IMG/VR virus record: IMGVR_UViG_3300042922_000870
Coordinates: 1 to 47,313 of that record
Length of the DNA: 47,313 nt
Strand: one strand, 5' to 3'
Origin: a virus
This document shows positions 6,446-41,733 of this stretch, one piece after another. How positions within the stretch are numbered: the stretch's first letter is position 1; every line of letters begins with the position of its first letter. The notes beneath the pieces are model-generated. The model was given only the letters and a program-made list of their open reading frames with translations. It did not search any database and was not told where the DNA came from. Made by a program: the position numbers and the translations under genes.

Positions 6446-7147
6446 TCACATCATATACGCCTGTAGTCCATTATATGTTGAGGTTCCCTTGGTGGCATAA
6501 TCCAAAGCGGTTTTCCCAGAACTGTCTTTCAGAGTGGCATCTGATTTATAAGTGTTTGTTAGTTCTCCAAAATAGAAGATGTTTTCATTAATTACACTTA
6601 GCATAAGAGCAGTTTTTCCATTTGCGTCCTGCAGATTAGGATTTAATCCATTAACTTTTATAACCGAATATAGAGCGAAATTGTCCTCAAGAACCACGTA
6701 ATGTAACAATGACTGCTTGGACTTACTGTCTTGTGCATTTACTGAGAATTCTCCAGCAGCAATAGCTAATGCGATTTTAGTTGCATCTATTTTTCCGTTT
6801 GTAGAATATTTATCGTGTAAATCTGACACAAACTCTCCTCCAGTTGAATTGACACTTGCTTTAGTTGAAGATGGGGTAGAAGAGGGAATCTTGGTTCCCA
6901 CACTGAAGGTAACAGTGGAGGATGTTACTCCAGTTACTTCATACCCAAAAGAGTTTCCAGCATCCCTTACTGGAATATACAGTTTATTGTTTACCGTCAT
7001 AGCTTCAATCGAAGTTTGATTGCTACCCGTTACTAATTTAACTGTTTTAGGTGTGGCTTTAAGATAGGTAGCAGCTCCAGCGACACCGCCAGCAGTTACA
7101 CATATCCCAACAACTAACCCCAAAGCAAAAGTTGATATTTTTCTCAT
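6446..7147 (-). CDS. Exported protein with copper-amine-oxidase-N-like and ankyrin-repeat segments (cargo gene)
   Basis: 233 residues from ATG 7147 with GGAGGTAC upstream. Residues 1-27 are a signal peptide (MRKISTFALGLVVGICVTAG followed by GVAGAA). Residues about 30-85 (VKLVTGSNQTSIEAMTVNNK, LYIPVRDAGNSFGYEVTG) resemble the copper-amine-oxidase N-terminal domain frequent in Paenibacillus surface proteins. A Ser/Thr/Pro linker follows, then two to three ankyrin-like units from about residue 140 (NAQDSKSKQSLLHYVVLEDN, NLQDANGKTALMLSV, LKDSSGKTALDYA). A TATAAT lies about 20 nt before the ribosome site, but no clear -35 box is seen. With the neighbouring zinc-ribbon gene it forms a cargo island inside the tail module, likely a lysogenic-conversion gene whose product acts at the cell surface. 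Confidence 0.75.
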   Translation of the reverse strand: MRKISTFALGLVVGICVTAGGVAGAATYLKATPKTVKLVTGSNQTSIEAMTVNNKLYIPVRDAGNSFGYEVTGVTSSTVTFSVGTKIPSSTPSSTKASVNSTGGEFVSDLHDKYSTNGKIDATKIALAIAAGEFSVNAQDSKSKQSLLHYVVLEDNFALYSVIKVNGLNPNLQDANGKTALMLSVINENIFYFGELTNTYKSDATLKDSSGKTALDYATKGTSTYNGLQAYMM

Positions 7148-7226: not shown

Positions 7227-10200
7227 CTAAATATTCTCAAATAGGAATTCGGTTGCTTTAAAAGCAATCTTATTGTCAGGCCTGATTTCAATAAGTGCGC
7301 CTGACGTATTCCCGATTTTTACAGTACCATTATCGGATGATATTGTGAAATCTTTGGTTGATATAATTGTTTTACCGCTTGTTGATGTCAAATATACTCC
7401 GTCATCACGTAAATCTAAACCTCTCTCTAAGCCATAGTTACTGTTGCCATAATTAATTTTCAACCCGCCGTTATATTTATCAAACCGTCCGATTCCACTT
7501 GTACTAGTGGCTCCATCCCCCAAACCGAGTCGGATATAAGGCTGTGCGGAGTCCGCTGTACCCTCAAATCCCATCGCTGCTTTAATTTTCTTATTGTTTG
7601 GATCAACCGAATATTCATAAACAGGCCATGCGGTTGTCTCTGTTGTCATTTGTCCGGTTTGAGAGGAATTTACCCAATAAAGAAGTCGGCCATCTGACAA
7701 TGCTTTTTGTGAACCCTGAGTAGCAATACCTGTTATCCATTGAATGTAGTTATCTTCTACTACAACAAAGTTCGACCAACCTCCGATAGCTGAGCGATCC
7801 ATTGTTACGACTTTCTGAGCTGTTAGGTCCGAGATAAATCCCCATTGTGCAGATACCAGATTTGCAGAAATTAGTTCAGCAGAAATAGCCCCAGCACCCT
7901 TTAAATCCCAAAAATTCATATCAATGAATTTGTTTACACTGTCGATCATAAGTCCACCATTAACGCCATTCTTAACGATTAGTTTCTTAAATATTGCTTC
8001 ACCATCGGGCTTAATCCAAGTGGGTGCGTCACTGGCATTTTCAGCCCCTGCCCAAAAGCCTGTTGATGGATAGAGTTTCATTATACCGCCAATGTCATCA
8101 CGAAGAATGATGTAGGCACCTTCAATACCACCTTCTGTGATGATAGAATTATTTATTTTAATTCCTTCCGCATGAATTATGCCACTCGTATCAGCCCAGA
8201 ACTGATCTATCCAGTTGGGCGAAGAAACAGAGCCGATGTTTTTTTGGATAGCAAAACCTTTTATTGCATTCATGATTGACCGATACATATCATCAGATCG
8301 AGTAGCCATGACACCATTTTCACTGTCTAGAATAACTTTATTGTACATCTGACCCAATTGGACGCTACTCCATTTCACAGCATCAGTAATTTCGTTAATG
8401 ATTCTTTGAGCTTGATCATAGTAAGTTTGGAACTTGGTTTTGAAAACATTACGGTCAATTTCTGTAGTGGCTGACATGTCTGCAAGCAATGGTAGCACAT
8501 ACGCAGCAAGGTCATTGAAGGAAGAGGTGAAAGGAGGAATATCTATCAGTACAGTCTGATAATTGTCTCTTACCGATGTTTTATATTGATTGGCTTGTTG
8601 TAGCAGTTTGGTATATTCAGTTTGAATTGTTTGCCATTCTTGGAGTAAGGATAGTTTTTCAATTGAGGTTAATTTATTATCTGTGATGATCGTAGTAAAA
8701 CGTCCGATATCTAAGTAGCTTGAATCAATATCCATGAACACATCGTTGAGACTGGAGACAATTTTCAAGGATTTGGCAACTAACTCTTCAGCCCAAAGTC
8801 TCGCGTCTTCTACATTTACCCAAAAGCGTTTTACCCACTGGTTATTTATCTTTTTTTGAATGGAAATGCCATCTGTTGCATTTAAACGAGTACGATATAA
8901 TTCATCTGAACGAGTTACAGTAATCCCGTCAATGCTATCGAGCAGAACATTGTTATATAACGAACCAAGCTGTAAGCTACTATACTTAATAGAATCATTG
9001 ATAGCATTTACGATAGCAACTACTTGATCATAGTACAATTTAAAGCATTGGATAAACTCATTACGATCGATAGCTGATGTTTCAGTCATGTTAGATAGAA
9101 GAGGGGAGAGGTAGGCGATTAAAGCATTGTAGGCTGCAGTAAATGGAGGGATGTCAATCCGTACTGTATCGTCTCTGCTTGTGGTTTTATAAATGTTTGC
9201 TTGATCCAGCAGTTTAGCATATTCTGAAATTATCCTTGTACGTTCACCAATTACCTGCAACTTTTCAATAGCAGTCAACTTACCGTCAGTTATGATATTA
9301 TCAAACTTACCGATATTCATTTCCTTCGTGTAACTGTCTAGTAGCAGTTCGTTCTGATCAGATATGATCTTTAATCGCTTAGCAGTAATATCTTGACCAA
9401 ATATATTGCCATCTGTGTCTAAATGAAGCTTATCATCAAAAGAATGTCCATTCCAGCGTTGAATTTTAAATCCGTCTTCACTGTTTGCGATGACTTTATT
9501 GATAAGAGTGGAGTTTACATCATTTCCATTATACCGATTGATTATCATTCCGAACTTATCTGGATTTTCTTCATAGAGTCCAAGCATCATAGCAATTCGA
9601 CCATGACGATCCTTTATTGTTGTACGTGGACCTTCCATTAGCCAGATTCCTGCGGCATCACCCACAATTACTCGCTGAGAAAGGACGATTTTACCATATA
9701 GCGTTTCGGCAATAATTAGATTTGGATTGAAGTCTGTATGTAACCTTAAGATTGTATCTCGATCTGTAATTTTATTATTGCTGAGTAGGCGAGGTTTATC
9801 TTTAAACTCATAAATTTTAAGATAGCCGCCTATAGTTTCACAAGAAAGGTAGTTAAATAGTTTTGTGAAAATATAGGATGCATTGACTATTTCGGATTTT
9901 TCTATTTCTCTATGTATAAACTCTAGAGATTCCCCTGTCTTTATCCCACCTGTGAAAATTCCAATTCCTTCTGTAACAACATTTTCTTTGATAAAAAAAT
10001 CATTATAATGAGATATCTGGGTGTTACACATCTTACCATTGATAGATTTAAGGACAACAATCTCAAGTGAGGGGTTTAGATATTTATTTTTATTTTCATT
10101 AAACACAACTTTGGCAATTTCAGATAGTGCACTGTTAGACTTTTCAACACTTACTTTGTACTTCCTGATCACTTCATAAGATATATCCATAGTTCCAGAG

Positions 10201-10346
10201 CAGAATATCACTGTATCTTCAATTTCGAATAGTTTTTCACCGAAATCGTTTATACGATATGTAATGTCATCAATAATAGTTGAAACGGCAGAGTCTGAGG
10301 CGATCCATGCAGAGGATGGTGTTTGAATAATCGCTACCGAACTAAT
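7227..10346 (-). CDS. Large tail protein with N-terminal proteasome/HslV-like Ntn-hydrolase domain; likely AUU start
   Basis: 1039 residues if started at ATT 10346, which abuts the stop of the upstream gene (TAA ATT) behind GAGGAAGTGG. The nearest ordinary start, GTG 10211, would cut 45 residues. These encode S-S-V-A-I-I-Q-T-P-S-S-A-W-I-A-S-D-S-A, the first strands of a proteasome/HslV-like fold: numbering from the Ser after the initiator, Ser1, Asp17 and a Lys at 37 (GEKLFEI) correspond to Thr1, Asp17 and Lys33 of that family, and GIGIFTGGIKTG at 126-137 to its GSGG segment. Two tandem homologous units of about 190 residues follow (about 328-525 and 530-720; each with LTxIEKL, IDIPPFT and WSSVQLG/YSSLQLG-type motifs), then a beta-rich C-terminus (TTTIKDRHGRIAM-type repeats, SALIEIRPDNKIAF end). 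Position after the tail endopeptidase gene indicates a tail-tip/central-fibre protein. Confidence 0.7.
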   Translation of the reverse strand: MSSVAIIQTPSSAWIASDSAVSTIIDDITYRINDFGEKLFEIEDTVIFCSGTMDISYEVIRKYKVSVEKSNSALSEIAKVVFNENKNKYLNPSLEIVVLKSINGKMCNTQISHYNDFFIKENVVTEGIGIFTGGIKTGESLEFIHREIEKSEIVNASYIFTKLFNYLSCETIGGYLKIYEFKDKPRLLSNNKITDRDTILRLHTDFNPNLIIAETLYGKIVLSQRVIVGDAAGIWLMEGPRTTIKDRHGRIAMMLGLYEENPDKFGMIINRYNGNDVNSTLINKVIANSEDGFKIQRWNGHSFDDKLHLDTDGNIFGQDITAKRLKIISDQNELLLDSYTKEMNIGKFDNIITDGKLTAIEKLQVIGERTRIISEYAKLLDQANIYKTTSRDDTVRIDIPPFTAAYNALIAYLSPLLSNMTETSAIDRNEFIQCFKLYYDQVVAIVNAINDSIKYSSLQLGSLYNNVLLDSIDGITVTRSDELYRTRLNATDGISIQKKINNQWVKRFWVNVEDARLWAEELVAKSLKIVSSLNDVFMDIDSSYLDIGRFTTIITDNKLTSIEKLSLLQEWQTIQTEYTKLLQQANQYKTSVRDNYQTVLIDIPPFTSSFNDLAAYVLPLLADMSATTEIDRNVFKTKFQTYYDQAQRIINEITDAVKWSSVQLGQMYNKVILDSENGVMATRSDDMYRSIMNAIKGFAIQKNIGSVSSPNWIDQFWADTSGIIHAEGIKINNSIITEGGIEGAYIILRDDIGGIMKLYPSTGFWAGAENASDAPTWIKPDGEAIFKKLIVKNGVNGGLMIDSVNKFIDMNFWDLKGAGAISAELISANLVSAQWGFISDLTAQKVVTMDRSAIGGWSNFVVVEDNYIQWITGIATQGSQKALSDGRLLYWVNSSQTGQMTTETTAWPVYEYSVDPNNKKIKAAMGFEGTADSAQPYIRLGLGDGATSTSGIGRFDKYNGGLKINYGNSNYGLERGLDLRDDGVYLTSTSGKTIISTKDFTISSDNGTVKIGNTSGALIEIRPDNKIAFKATEFLFENI

Positions 10347-11624
10347 TTAAACCACTTCCTCTGCGTTGAAATTCACCCAATCTTTTAAAACTAATTCTTT
10401 GTACCGATAATCAGAGGAAACTAAAGACTCGATACACTCGCATAAGTCTTTGAAATCAGGTAACATATGACCACTTTTAATACGAAGGACTTTCCATCCT
10501 CTACTTTTTAAAAACTCGTCTCGTTTTCTGTCTTGTTTTTGATCTTTATGAAAATAGGCTGCATCATATTCAATATCGATTTTAATATCATCGATGTATA
10601 ATGCGATATCAAGGATCGAACGACTAATTGGTTCATTTAATACTACATTAAATCCGTGATCTAGCAATTGCTTATAAATTGATATTTGTTGAGAGGAGGT
10701 AGGAACATTTCCATTTTCTTTTAATGTTCTATTTCTCTTTTCGATGAACGCCGGAACCTCTCCAGCATATTCAAACCCATATCTATTAAGCATAGTGGCT
10801 CTTGATTTTTCTCTAATTCTAGCATTTGAAAATGTATATTCGGCACCATATCTAGCAATATTAGTTTTCTTGATTTTTTCTTGAATAGTCTTATTTAAAG
10901 CAGGGGATTTAAAACCATATCTTATCAAATTGGTATTACATCTACGATTGCTCAGATATCTGTTTTTCATTGGGTGCTCAACTTCATACTTCATTAAACA
11001 AGATTTCTTTATTTTATTTTTAATATTTTCATCTTGAAAGACACATTCTACACCGTATCGTTCTAGATTAGTTATTTTTACTCTTTCTTTGTATTCATCG
11101 GTTTGGGTATAAAAATCAACGCCATATTTTTCTCTATTTGTTGTTTTTATTTTTTCTTTAAAATCATTTAACAACATAGGGTTCTCTACGCCATAATTAT
11201 CGATAAACTTATTTTTTATTTTGTCTTTTACTTCTTTTACTTGGAATACATTCGTAATTTCCTCACCATATTTTTCTTTTATGGTATTTAAGCATTTATC
11301 TCTAACCTCGGGCAATCTTAAAACACATTCAACTCCATACTTTTCAAGCGTTGATTCTCTCTGTTTTTTAAATCTGCAATCTTTACAACAATCTTTAGAA
11401 GTCAATGAATTCTCACGCTCTTTGAGTAGTGCTTTATAACTTTTCGTTATTATGTTTTTACAATAATCACACTCTACCAAGACTCTAGAAACGCTTCCAT
11501 AATGTAGATGAGCGATATCAACCTCAAATTTGCTCCTAAAGGAGGAGAAAACATATCCTTTCTCTTCGTACCAAACCTTATTATTAATGTGCCAAGAAAC
11601 AGGAATCGTTTGTTGTAACAGCAT
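10347..11624 (-). CDS. Free-standing homing-endonuclease-like protein (zinc ribbon, YGVE repeats, Vsr/DUF559-type nuclease)
   Basis: 425 residues from ATG 11624. Residues about 50-90 carry a zinc-binding set (CDYC ... CCKDC). Then come about seven repeats of 25-30 residues with the core KYGVE/RYGVE (TLEKYGVECVLRLPEV, DNYGVENPMLLNDF, LERYGVECVFQDEN), a DNA-binding repeat type of phage endonucleases. The C-terminus has a Vsr/very-short-patch-like nuclease pattern: DIEYDAAYFH, then RDEFLKSRGWKVLRI. It separates two tail-tip genes and is preceded by a terminator, as is usual for mobile intron-less homing genes. Its stop codon directly adjoins the proposed AUU start of the next gene. Free-standing endonuclease role inferred from domains and position. 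Confidence 0.8.
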   Translation of the reverse strand: MLLQQTIPVSWHINNKVWYEEKGYVFSSFRSKFEVDIAHLHYGSVSRVLVECDYCKNIITKSYKALLKERENSLTSKDCCKDCRFKKQRESTLEKYGVECVLRLPEVRDKCLNTIKEKYGEEITNVFQVKEVKDKIKNKFIDNYGVENPMLLNDFKEKIKTTNREKYGVDFYTQTDEYKERVKITNLERYGVECVFQDENIKNKIKKSCLMKYEVEHPMKNRYLSNRRCNTNLIRYGFKSPALNKTIQEKIKKTNIARYGAEYTFSNARIREKSRATMLNRYGFEYAGEVPAFIEKRNRTLKENGNVPTSSQQISIYKQLLDHGFNVVLNEPISRSILDIALYIDDIKIDIEYDAAYFHKDQKQDRKRDEFLKSRGWKVLRIKSGHMLPDFKDLCECIESLVSSDYRYKELVLKDWVNFNAEEVV

Positions 11625-11658
11625 AAGACTCTTAGCGCTCCTTTTTTACAGATATAAC

Positions 11659-11699
11659 AAAAGAAGTAATTGGATTAATTTGACCCAATCACTTCTTTT
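11659..11699 (-). terminator. Intrinsic terminator at the end of the tail endopeptidase gene
   Basis: Long stem of 15 positions, AAAAGAAGTGATTGG against CCAATTACTTCTTTT with one G-U pair, loop of about 11 nt, followed by TTTTGTTATAT on the minus strand. It overlaps the last codons of the gene ending at 11675 and precedes the homing-endonuclease-like gene. Confidence 0.8.
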
Positions 11700-13846
11700 A
11701 ATGTGTATATTGATTTTAATACAAGATTATTACGACAAATTCCATCGGCAGTAATGGCTGTCTCGTATCTTTGTCCGCCTGATTTTGTTACACCCAAACT
11801 TCCCGCCGTCAGACGAAGGAAGCGCAATGGATCATTAGGATCTGTAATCGTAATTCCCCGATTGTCAGTTGTTACAGTGTTATTAATACTCATATTGATT
11901 TGATTCGTAACTTTATCCCAGAACTCATCAAACAACAAGCTCATATCTGATATATCTGTTACAGATTTAAGCCAGTCTTTTTTGTTTGCATCGATAGTAG
12001 TAGAAGTGTTATTACTCTTCTTCATGAACTCGTTCATTTTTGAAGCAGCACTGCCATCATTTTTAACATTAGAGAGAGTTATGGATATCTTTTCGCCTTC
12101 AAAATCATAATTAATCTCAATAATTTTTGCCTTAACATTAACCCCTATACGCTCATATTTAATAGATACATAGTCACCCTTATTAAGCTTGTCCCACTTA
12201 GATTGTTCTTCTAAAACACTCAAGAAGTAAACTAAGTCAATTTCCATCGACATTTGAGGGACTTTTACTTCTGCAAAATTCTCTTCGCCATATTTAAGTA
12301 GATCTTCTGCGTCAATACAATTGCTATTCTCATAAGTCCCAATCTTTACAAAACGCTGCAGTTCAATTAGTTGATCTGGTGTGAAATTATTTGAGCTGGA
12401 GAGGATGGACTGTAAACTAGCTATTTGAACTAAAACAGTATTCAAATAACCTGTTTGTTCAGTGATTTCATTTTTCTTTCCATCAATCAGCATCTGTTTA
12501 TTGTTTGGGCAGTAACGGTCAATTATAACAGTATCGTTCGATGAAGTATTATACTCTGACTCATTGATTGCTGTAACTTGTATATCTACGTTAGCTGATC
12601 CACTACCAGCAATCAAAACGCTCGATGTAGTCAATCCGCTCACTTTACCAAGCAATGTCCAAGTATTAGAAAATACAGTTTTTAACGCTCCATTAAGGGA
12701 TACTTGGACATTAGTTGCATTCGAAACTTTAGCCATAACTGCGTATGGGTACATTGTCTGTAGAGAGTCGAGGTTGATTGTTTTTGATGAACCATTGTAA
12801 GAAACCGATTCAAAGAACATTGTAGGTTTATTATTGTTACCCAATTGATAATTGTCAACGATGTTGTATATCACTTTTAACTGGTTTTGAAGATCAACTA
12901 ACTCAGATTGCTTAGTTGAAAGTGTAGTAATATATCCATCACGAGCTGTCTTAAGAATTGAGAATTGGTCTTTATTTGCCCCAACAAGTTCCTGGTAATC
13001 CAATATAGCATGACAAAGAGAGTCTGACATCGAATAACTATGCTCAATGACATTTTTATCTTCATCTCTTTGGAAAGGATACATAAAATAGCTATAGTCT
13101 TCAAGGTAATCCTTGCCCGTTGGGTGAATTGCATTTATGGTTAATCCATCTTTTCCTTTGAGATGAAGTCGAGTAACAACTTCATTTGCATCAGACTTTT
13201 TATCAAAATTCTTAAGTAGACTCTCATAGGAAAATGTTAGACCCATATCGATGCCGAACAATTCGGGTTTCTTCAGGTTTACAGTTTGAAGATCGGTATC
13301 AAATAGAACAATCGCATTATAGGTCTCAGCAACATCATAAATGGAACCAAGTAATTTATTATCCAGAAACTCAAAAGTCCGCTTAGATAGTTCAAAATCG
13401 GGATCGATATCCCCGACAGTCCATGTGGTTTCATTTAGCATTTCTGTTAAGACGGTTCTTGCACCTTTTGATTCTGCCGTATACCCTTTAAGCGCGCGCT
13501 GTGCTAACTCGAACTCTAATCCTAAAAGGGTGAGCTTTTTATAACTTGAATCCTCACTCACAACCTCATTGATGGCTGTGATTACGTACCACTCTGATGT
13601 CTTACCGAAAACTAATTTAATCAGGTAATTTTCTTTAATTGTATCGATATGTTTATTGAGCATTAGTACGTGATTGACATCTATAAAGTAGGGGATGCTT
13701 AAAGTTAATTCACTTGTTTCGCTAACGGGATCGTTTAGACTATCCTTATATGCTTCACTTAATTTTCCGATAATATGTTTATCAGGTTTTGCAAGAAAAT
13801 AGTTAGGCCTATAAGCTTTTTTTGTGTAATCTATATCTCCTAACAT
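11675..13846 (-). CDS. Tail-associated protein (prophage endopeptidase-tail/Tal-like)
   Basis: 723 residues from ATG 13846 with ATGGAGGTAAT upstream. The N-terminal third (YFLAKPDKHIIGKLSEAYKD, ELTLSIPYF, YLIKLVFGKTSEWYVITAI, LTLLGLEFELAQRALKGY) follows the pattern of Tal/gp27-like tail hub proteins. A middle region (residues about 320-470) contains a carbohydrate-binding-like beta domain (SVSYNGSSKTINLDSLQTMY, LLGKVSGL). Toward the C-terminus YVSIKYERIGVNVKAKIIEI and ISITLSNVK are the usual hub-closing strands. The last 80 residues (TDNRGITITDPNDPLRFLRL) link to a downstream fibre. Placed directly after the tape measure gene, as in siphophages. Acts at the tail tip; peptidase activity is not evident from motifs. 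Confidence 0.8.
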   Translation of the reverse strand: MLGDIDYTKKAYRPNYFLAKPDKHIIGKLSEAYKDSLNDPVSETSELTLSIPYFIDVNHVLMLNKHIDTIKENYLIKLVFGKTSEWYVITAINEVVSEDSSYKKLTLLGLEFELAQRALKGYTAESKGARTVLTEMLNETTWTVGDIDPDFELSKRTFEFLDNKLLGSIYDVAETYNAIVLFDTDLQTVNLKKPELFGIDMGLTFSYESLLKNFDKKSDANEVVTRLHLKGKDGLTINAIHPTGKDYLEDYSYFMYPFQRDEDKNVIEHSYSMSDSLCHAILDYQELVGANKDQFSILKTARDGYITTLSTKQSELVDLQNQLKVIYNIVDNYQLGNNNKPTMFFESVSYNGSSKTINLDSLQTMYPYAVMAKVSNATNVQVSLNGALKTVFSNTWTLLGKVSGLTTSSVLIAGSGSANVDIQVTAINESEYNTSSNDTVIIDRYCPNNKQMLIDGKKNEITEQTGYLNTVLVQIASLQSILSSSNNFTPDQLIELQRFVKIGTYENSNCIDAEDLLKYGEENFAEVKVPQMSMEIDLVYFLSVLEEQSKWDKLNKGDYVSIKYERIGVNVKAKIIEINYDFEGEKISITLSNVKNDGSAASKMNEFMKKSNNTSTTIDANKKDWLKSVTDISDMSLLFDEFWDKVTNQINMSINNTVTTDNRGITITDPNDPLRFLRLTAGSLGVTKSGGQRYETAITADGICRNNLVLKSIYTLKEVIGSN

Positions 13847-41635: not shown

Positions 41636-41733
41636 AGTCGATAGCAGGGCGGCGTATCCTGCATTTCTGATAACTCAGAACGCACCCAACGTGCGGTCTG
41701 AGCGTGTAGAGAACCTTTTCTACCTTATCGACT
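41636..41733 (-). ncRNA. Candidate structured RNA, cloverleaf-like four-way junction
   Basis: Minus-strand transcript of 98 nt. P1: AGUCGAUA (41733-41726) with UAUCGACU (41643-41636), 8 bp. P2: GUAGA/UCUAC, 8-nt loop containing GG. P3: CUCAGA/UCUGAG plus CGCAC/GUGCG with one C-U mismatch and loop GUUGG. P4: GCAGG/CCUGC, 9-nt loop. All stems are perfect by complementarity. Located between HU stop and YonK start with no ORF. It is not a tRNA: P3 is too long and there is no TTCRANYC loop. UUCUGAG can also pair with UCAGAA just downstream, giving an alternative hairpin. The GC content is well above the neighbourhood. Function unknown; riboswitch, attenuator, RNase target or stable RNA are possible. 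Confidence 0.65.

Follow-up and report, generated by a model that had tools for sequence, protein, structure and literature searches.

Several described systems bear on the locus considered here. Fuchs, Alva and Lupas (2021; PMC8665760) listed Firmicute Cluster 4 (FC4, representative WP_076223917.1), a group of proteasome-like proteins in which the C-terminal part is similar to proteins of phage tails, and reported for it no phages, no informative genomic context or function and no trusted model. The connectase of methanogens, a related monomeric proteasome homologue, is a ligase which forms a peptidyl bond between its Thr1 and the substrate (PMC11745163; PMC8665760). As to phage genes, homing endonucleases are known to leave some of them in pieces, as in Aeh1 nrdA/mobE and T4 gene 60/mobA, and the proteins split in this way assemble and function as separate polypeptides (PMC2988022). 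Finally, the capsid-forming PICIs (cf-PICIs), as defined in PMC10690885, are satellites that take only tails; their mean size is 14 kb (PMC10803314).

The window, by which we mean the whole analysed stretch of 47,313 nucleotides (IMG/VR virus record IMGVR_UViG_3300042922_000870), contains a tail-fibre gene whose product begins with a proteasome-like Ntn domain (Table 1). We refer to this product and its relatives as Ntn-fibres.

Table 1. Features of the Ntn-fibre locus, with positions in the window
Feature	Coordinates	Strand	Basis or remark
Whole Ntn-fibre protein	7227..10346	-	1039 residues; N-terminus homologous to Perkons ORF185
Proposed ATT initiation codon	10344..10346	-	abuts TAA of the endonuclease gene; ATG in Perkons and ATC in L033 at the same codon
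Ntn domain and linker (residues 1-211)	9714..10346	-	AlphaFold, Foldseek, profile match to proteasome beta
Ser1 nucleophile codon (mature numbering)	10341..10343	-	Ser 32/33, Thr 1/33
Asp17 codon	10293..10295	-	33/33 homologues
Lys37 codon (proteasome Lys33 equivalent)	10233..10235	-	33/33; aligned to HslV Lys33
Gly50 codon (oxyanion-hole Gly47 equivalent)	10194..10196	-	33/33 homologues
Fibre half	7227..9713	-	collinear with residues 721-1492 of the continuous L014 protein; 67% identity
Insert carrying the new hub C-tail, the endonuclease gene and the Ntn domain, and lacking in close relatives	9714..11737	-	comparison with L014 and L003
Homing-endonuclease gene, 425 aa	10347..11624	-	DUF7487 repeats and MTES_1575/DUF559 nuclease; phrog_12131; homologous endonucleases at the Perkons and L033 site
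Hub half (YOMG_N, Prophage_tail)	11675..13846	-	native part to 11738, then 20 new residues CRNNLVLKSIYTLKEVIGSN
Downstream exported protein, Cu_amine_oxidN1 stalk and ankyrin repeats	6446..7147	-	often beside Ntn-fibre genes, also beside the unsplit L014 gene

The frame of the Ntn-fibre gene is open from the codon right after the TAA of the endonuclease gene, and no ATG, GTG or TTG precedes the domain in it, so that ATT 10346-10344, and not GTG 10211, is with high likelihood the start. This choice is further supported by the start codons found at the same place in two relatives and by the conservation through the first 50 residues. In Psychrobacillus phage Perkons the corresponding codon opens an ATG-Ser-Ser sequence, and Asp17, Lys37 and the Ser-Gly are conserved; in the relative L033 it is an ATC behind a perfect Shine-Dalgarno sequence (AAGGAGGTGA), with an in-frame stop three codons upstream, and the first 51 residues are, by eye, about half identical to those of the window protein. 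The window ATT is preceded by a weak Shine-Dalgarno sequence only. The initial annotation, made from sequence alone, had claimed that 45 additional upstream residues complete the first strands of the fold; the conservation in Perkons and L033 shows these residues to be coding, and this claim held. Its numbering, with Ser as residue 1 after removal of the initiator, Asp as 17, Lys as 37 (HslV Lys33) and GIGIFTGGIKTG at 126-137, held as well, and Gly falls at 50. Non-canonical starts are thus proposed for the Ntn-fibre genes of both the window and L033 (L033:8001-8003), and the L033 endonuclease starts with ATT (L033:7588-7590); both L033 codons stand behind strong Shine-Dalgarno sequences.

Residues 1-195, modelled with five homologues (AlphaFold pLDDT 81, pTM 0.82), are predicted to have their strands and helices arranged in the order seen in proteasome subunits and to form an alpha-beta-beta-alpha sandwich, with helices at 53-65 and 71-88 and just a beta hairpin after Asp17. 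The top Foldseek matches in the PDB were all 20S proteasome subunits (probability 1.00, E 2.7e-9, TM 0.55-0.60), the best of them beta subunits, and a search of viral models retrieved HslV-like and proteasome-like phage proteins. Any other fold would have refuted the assignment to proteasome/HslV-like hydrolases fused to a tail protein, made in the initial annotation, which is supported by the fold, the active site and the 33 homologues. Sequence profiles agree with the fold weakly but independently: the family profile matched a proteasome beta subunit among PDB sequences at E 1.5e-4, and 27 of the 33 homologues, though not the window protein, matched phrog_1040 ("peptidase HslV family"). The window protein alone did not reach Pfam PF00227 and matched no Pfam family of the proteasome kind. 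The Asp and Lys align with HslV Asp17/Lys33. Since the hhalign comparison with HslV alone was not significant, the assignment rests on the fold, the active-site positions and the profile matches.

Across the homologues, position 1 is Ser (32) or Thr (one), and Asp17, Lys37, Phe47, Gly50, Gly172 and Gly173 are invariant. In all 33 the start codon immediately precedes the Ser/Thr, many of them having an in-frame stop at most three codons upstream. A pseudoenzyme would not be expected to retain residues so conserved together with a Ser/Thr beside the start codon. Residues 1-195 are a proteasome-like Ntn domain with a complete Ser1/Asp17/Lys37/Gly50 site and the nucleophile at the very N-terminus, the fold being predicted by modelling and the removal of the initiator in vivo being inferred.

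What the initial annotation overlooked is the origin of this arrangement. In the close relatives L014 and L003 (about 67-83% identical, varying by part) and in Brevibacillus phage Sundance, hub and fibre form a single continuous protein without an Ntn domain. At the site where the window carries its insert of 2024 bases, L014 and L003 are unbroken (...GAT GGG AT(A/T)|ATT GCA GAG...), and the alignment places the insert between the codons for TADGI and IAETLYGK. The window gene corresponds to the second half of a protein which close relatives make in one piece, and its Ntn head arrived in one insert with the homing endonuclease that split the hub-fibre protein. The tail assignment is in line with the match of the Ntn-fibre to phrog_6211, minor tail protein (E 1.5e-79). 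In Perkons and L033, the hub, an endonuclease of the same family and the Ntn-fibre follow in the same order at the same joint, and the split hubs of all three continue for 18-20 residues beyond the joint, with a sequence resembling the native downstream sequence that was lost.

Other types of mobile elements were considered for this site and rejected. A group I or II intron around the endonuclease is not supported, as the Rfam scan found no intron family there; an intein was rejected in the absence of any HINT or intein family among the Pfam matches of the hub, endonuclease and fibre; and the Cys that follows TADGI in the hub tail was not taken as an intein Cys1 because it is not conserved, being Ile in Perkons and Val in L033. 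The protein with the Cu_amine_oxidN1 stalk was rejected as a functional partner: since it also adjoins the unsplit L014 gene, we regard it as a common neighbour of tail genes, and similar genes come after many tail-fibre genes in related phages, prophages and satellites. Several further observations were made at these loci. L033:7588-7986 is an in-frame mini endonuclease with an internal deletion, in which the N-terminus and the nuclease are kept and the DUF7487 repeats are lost; a hub-fibre gene in L009 (4510-9391) is broken into two frames; and a Skipping-rope RNA (RF02924, 62.7 bits) lies elsewhere in the window, at 41636-41733 on the minus strand.

The Ntn head takes the place of the tail hub, and the exchange falls precisely on the hub-fibre joint. 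In every long-class Ntn-fibre that was checked, the domain is attached to the fibre at the very residue to which the hub is attached in other phages, with the motif (I/V)|(V/I)(G/A)E-x-x-(Y/F)-G-(K/R). On the tree of the fibre part, the head type (hub or Ntn) switches at least six times over well supported branches, and nine times in the best tree; the window is nested within a hub-fused clade (support 99/95), while L033 forms a long branch whose placement is unsure. Whether the endonuclease-linked Ntn heads make up one lineage, as would be expected of a co-mobile cassette, was neither shown nor rejected (p-AU 0.24). The short-class Ntn-fibres have other tail domains and carry the joint motif only in faded form.

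Relatives were collected by searching with the fibre part first and then by searching genomes with the domain profile, single-sequence and pattern searches of viral contigs with the Ntn domain alone having given no matches. The profile detected the domain in 38 of 396 Paenibacillaceae genomes but in just 3 of 398 when genomes were sampled evenly across the phylum. Approximately nine genomes harbor orphan copies, mostly of about 1010 residues, with fibres at most 69% identical to that of Sundance, and such orphans are present in genomes that lack an unbroken gene of the corresponding type. Some 40 Ntn-fibre genes were inspected for tail genes within 12 kb: a tape-measure gene was present for about six, five of them recognised by PF10145 and one by eye, and a Prophage_tail hub for none, it being understood that these two families miss some tape measures and hubs. 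Orphan genes distant from tail genes were noted in L030 and L066-L074; those of L030, L070, L071 and L074 are immediately preceded by a small HTH-like gene, an AbiH-looking gene (by eye) was seen in L030 as well, and the orphan L070:9105-12136 is broken into two frames.

Satellite-like elements that possess only a few tail genes, or none, also encode proteins of this kind. One of them is L151/L082, where PHROG matches and the map of open reading frames give the order integrase, repressor, DnaD/DnaC loaders, portal, head protease, major capsid, adaptor, HNH, terminases, head closure and, at the end, the Ntn-fibre, all in a stretch of some 14 kb that is flanked by host genes. The element has no tail genes, and PF10145 and PF06605 matched nowhere in that genome. 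On gene content, it meets the definition of a capsid-forming PICI, its mobilisation with helper tails being inferred. Another element, L152, occupies 12.4 kb between 43-bp repeats, one of which is the end of a tRNA-Val gene, and encodes an integrase, a repressor, a primase and an Ntn-fibre. Directly upstream of this Ntn-fibre there is a second, stand-alone proteasome-like gene (L152:14646-15251, identical to L079:8146-8751), whose product matches PF00227 at E 1e-7 and has Thr after the start codon. L146 contains an integrase, a tape measure, an Ntn-fibre and a TerS-like gene, and L080, L081/L147 and L148 are likewise small elements in which a tape-measure gene is followed by the Ntn-fibre and TerS-like genes; PHROG evidence is available for L146 only, the others having been assigned by eye. 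It is possible that these four are satellites remodelling the tail of a helper.

As to the function, we suppose that the Ntn head is an active enzyme which works on the hub-fibre junction and mounts the fibre on the tail hub, a reading that falls short of an even chance (about 0.4); both catalysis and action on the hub are inferred, and no substrate has been shown. The tail fibre would thus bear an active single-subunit proteasome-like enzyme as an exchangeable head. During assembly, this head would recognise the conserved hub joint T-x-D-G-I|V-G-E-R-x-Y-G-K, or the similar C-tail of split hubs; Ser1 would attack the joint, and either cleavage or a connectase-like transpeptidation would mount the head's own fibre on the hub, the latter being provided by the phage itself in split phages and by the helper in the case of satellites. 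Action on the hub is inferred because the free N-terminal Ser adjoins the very joint that the head replaces, because general proteolysis is unlikely in a single-subunit setting, and because the carrier elements have a fibre but no hub. The residues flanking the joint that split hubs retain, and the lack of a Prophage_tail hub near the Ntn-fibre genes, speak for mounting, as do the fold and catalytic residues, the precise substitution of the hub, the repeated head exchanges, the insert, the satellite contexts and the ligase activity of the connectase. Against it, the model lacks the hallmarks of connectases, the retained residues possibly serve only folding, and one common substrate is not obvious, since the short-class fibres have other tail domains and a faded motif. 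That satellite fibres are mounted on helper tails is inferred from gene content only, and the AlphaFold model of the continuous joint region (pLDDT 38) was set aside.

One alternative is that the N-terminal extension is not translated, in which case GTG 10211 would be the start and the protein would lack a functional domain. The lack of a conventional start codon ahead of the domain and the weak Shine-Dalgarno sequence at the ATT could be taken in its favor, but conservation at the protein level spans the entire extension, the relatives have ATG or ATC at the same codon, and a GTG start would delete the first strands of the fold, which all but excludes this explanation. If the domain is made, it could still be a docking module, held to the hub by non-covalent contacts, for which catalysis is of secondary importance or plays no part and the halves assemble unjoined. 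This remains possible, as phage proteins split by endonucleases are known to work as separate polypeptides (PMC2988022) and the joint residues retained on hub and fibre could let both halves fold; however, the nucleophile, Asp, Lys and oxyanion Gly are kept in 33 divergent homologues, unlike in the inactive proteasome alpha subunits, and the position of the start codon invariably leaves the Ser/Thr exposed.

Also possible is a protease acting on other proteins, either in virion maturation or as a means of interference, in which satellites or prophages would cut the hub-fibre protein made by their helper or by a superinfecting phage. The complete active site and the satellite-like contexts favor such a role, and a target in trans is plausible because orphan genes occur in genomes that have no continuous gene of their own type; yet subunits of the proteasome type have no activity unless assembled into the complex (PMC8665760), ring formation by a fibre is not obvious, and a pure protease would need no full fibre. 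The initial annotation had offered autoprocessing, a maturation protease or a peptidase of the cell wall or surface, and the function remains inferred, with the surface role the least likely of these because the domain lies at the hub-proximal end of the fibre. A tail-tip enzyme hydrolysing a host surface or cell-wall peptide at adsorption would agree with the presence of a hydrolase fold in a virion fibre; nevertheless, it is hardly probable, given that the head lies, as the fused relatives show, at the hub-proximal N-terminus, far from the receptor-binding end, and that it is conserved across fibres with unrelated distal parts. A bolder reading, which we find unlikely as a whole, would make the endonuclease and the Ntn head a non-intein protein-splicing element joining the hub (...TADGI|CRNN...) to the fibre (...NLI|IAET...) and restoring TADGI-IAETLYGK, or else leaving the head in the product as hub-Ser1-Ntn-fibre, in which case satellites would replace the helper fibre by the same chemistry.

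Should the mounting reading prove correct, phages, and especially tail-stealing satellites, would have a new way of changing receptor specificity, by protein chemistry and not by gene recombination; proteasome homologues of a group so far without a function would receive one, and the enzyme might be a new protein ligase. The presence of the same head on the fibres of tail-stealing elements makes it possible that it is a tool for mounting or swapping fibres.

Compared with the described systems, the Ntn-fibres most probably are FC4, although membership is inferred and does not come from a sequence match. Both are proteasome-like proteins of Firmicutes (the Ntn-fibre hosts being Paenibacillaceae) with phage-tail-like C-termini, lack a propeptide and belong to group II of the proteasome-like proteins; the statement of the initial annotation that no described case was known therefore failed in part. 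What differs from the description of FC4 is that the window protein lies in a phage tail operon, is parted from its hub by an endonuclease insert and has been traced to satellites. In the literature searched, mostly without subscription papers, we found no report of a tail operon whose fibre bears a proteasome-like head, of the link of such a head to an endonuclease insert or of its carriage by satellites.

With HslV and the 20S proteasome beta subunits, the domain shares the fold, the residue at position 1 and the positions of Asp17, Lys33 and Gly47, but the identity is very low, the Lys stands at 37 instead of 33, the domain is fused to a fibre and a ring is not expected. The connectase is similar in its proteasome fold, single subunit and N-terminal nucleophile, and the location of the head at a broken joint would suit a ligase; in contrast to the connectase, the Ntn model keeps the H1/H2 helices and has no two-helix insertion between strands 3 and 4. 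As these structural hallmarks are absent, the head may work like a connectase but is not called one. The L151/L082 element resembles cf-PICIs in its integrase, repressor, replication, capsid and packaging genes, its size and its lack of tail genes, and differs in ending with an Ntn-fibre gene, for which we found no report in cf-PICIs in the literature searched. Finally, as in Aeh1 nrdA/mobE and T4 gene 60/mobA, an endonuclease gene parts two halves that are continuous in relatives: the halves are collinear with the unbroken L014/L003 proteins, the endonuclease lies between them and no intron family is present. Unlike in those cases, the insert in the window also supplies an enzyme domain, with which the second half now begins.
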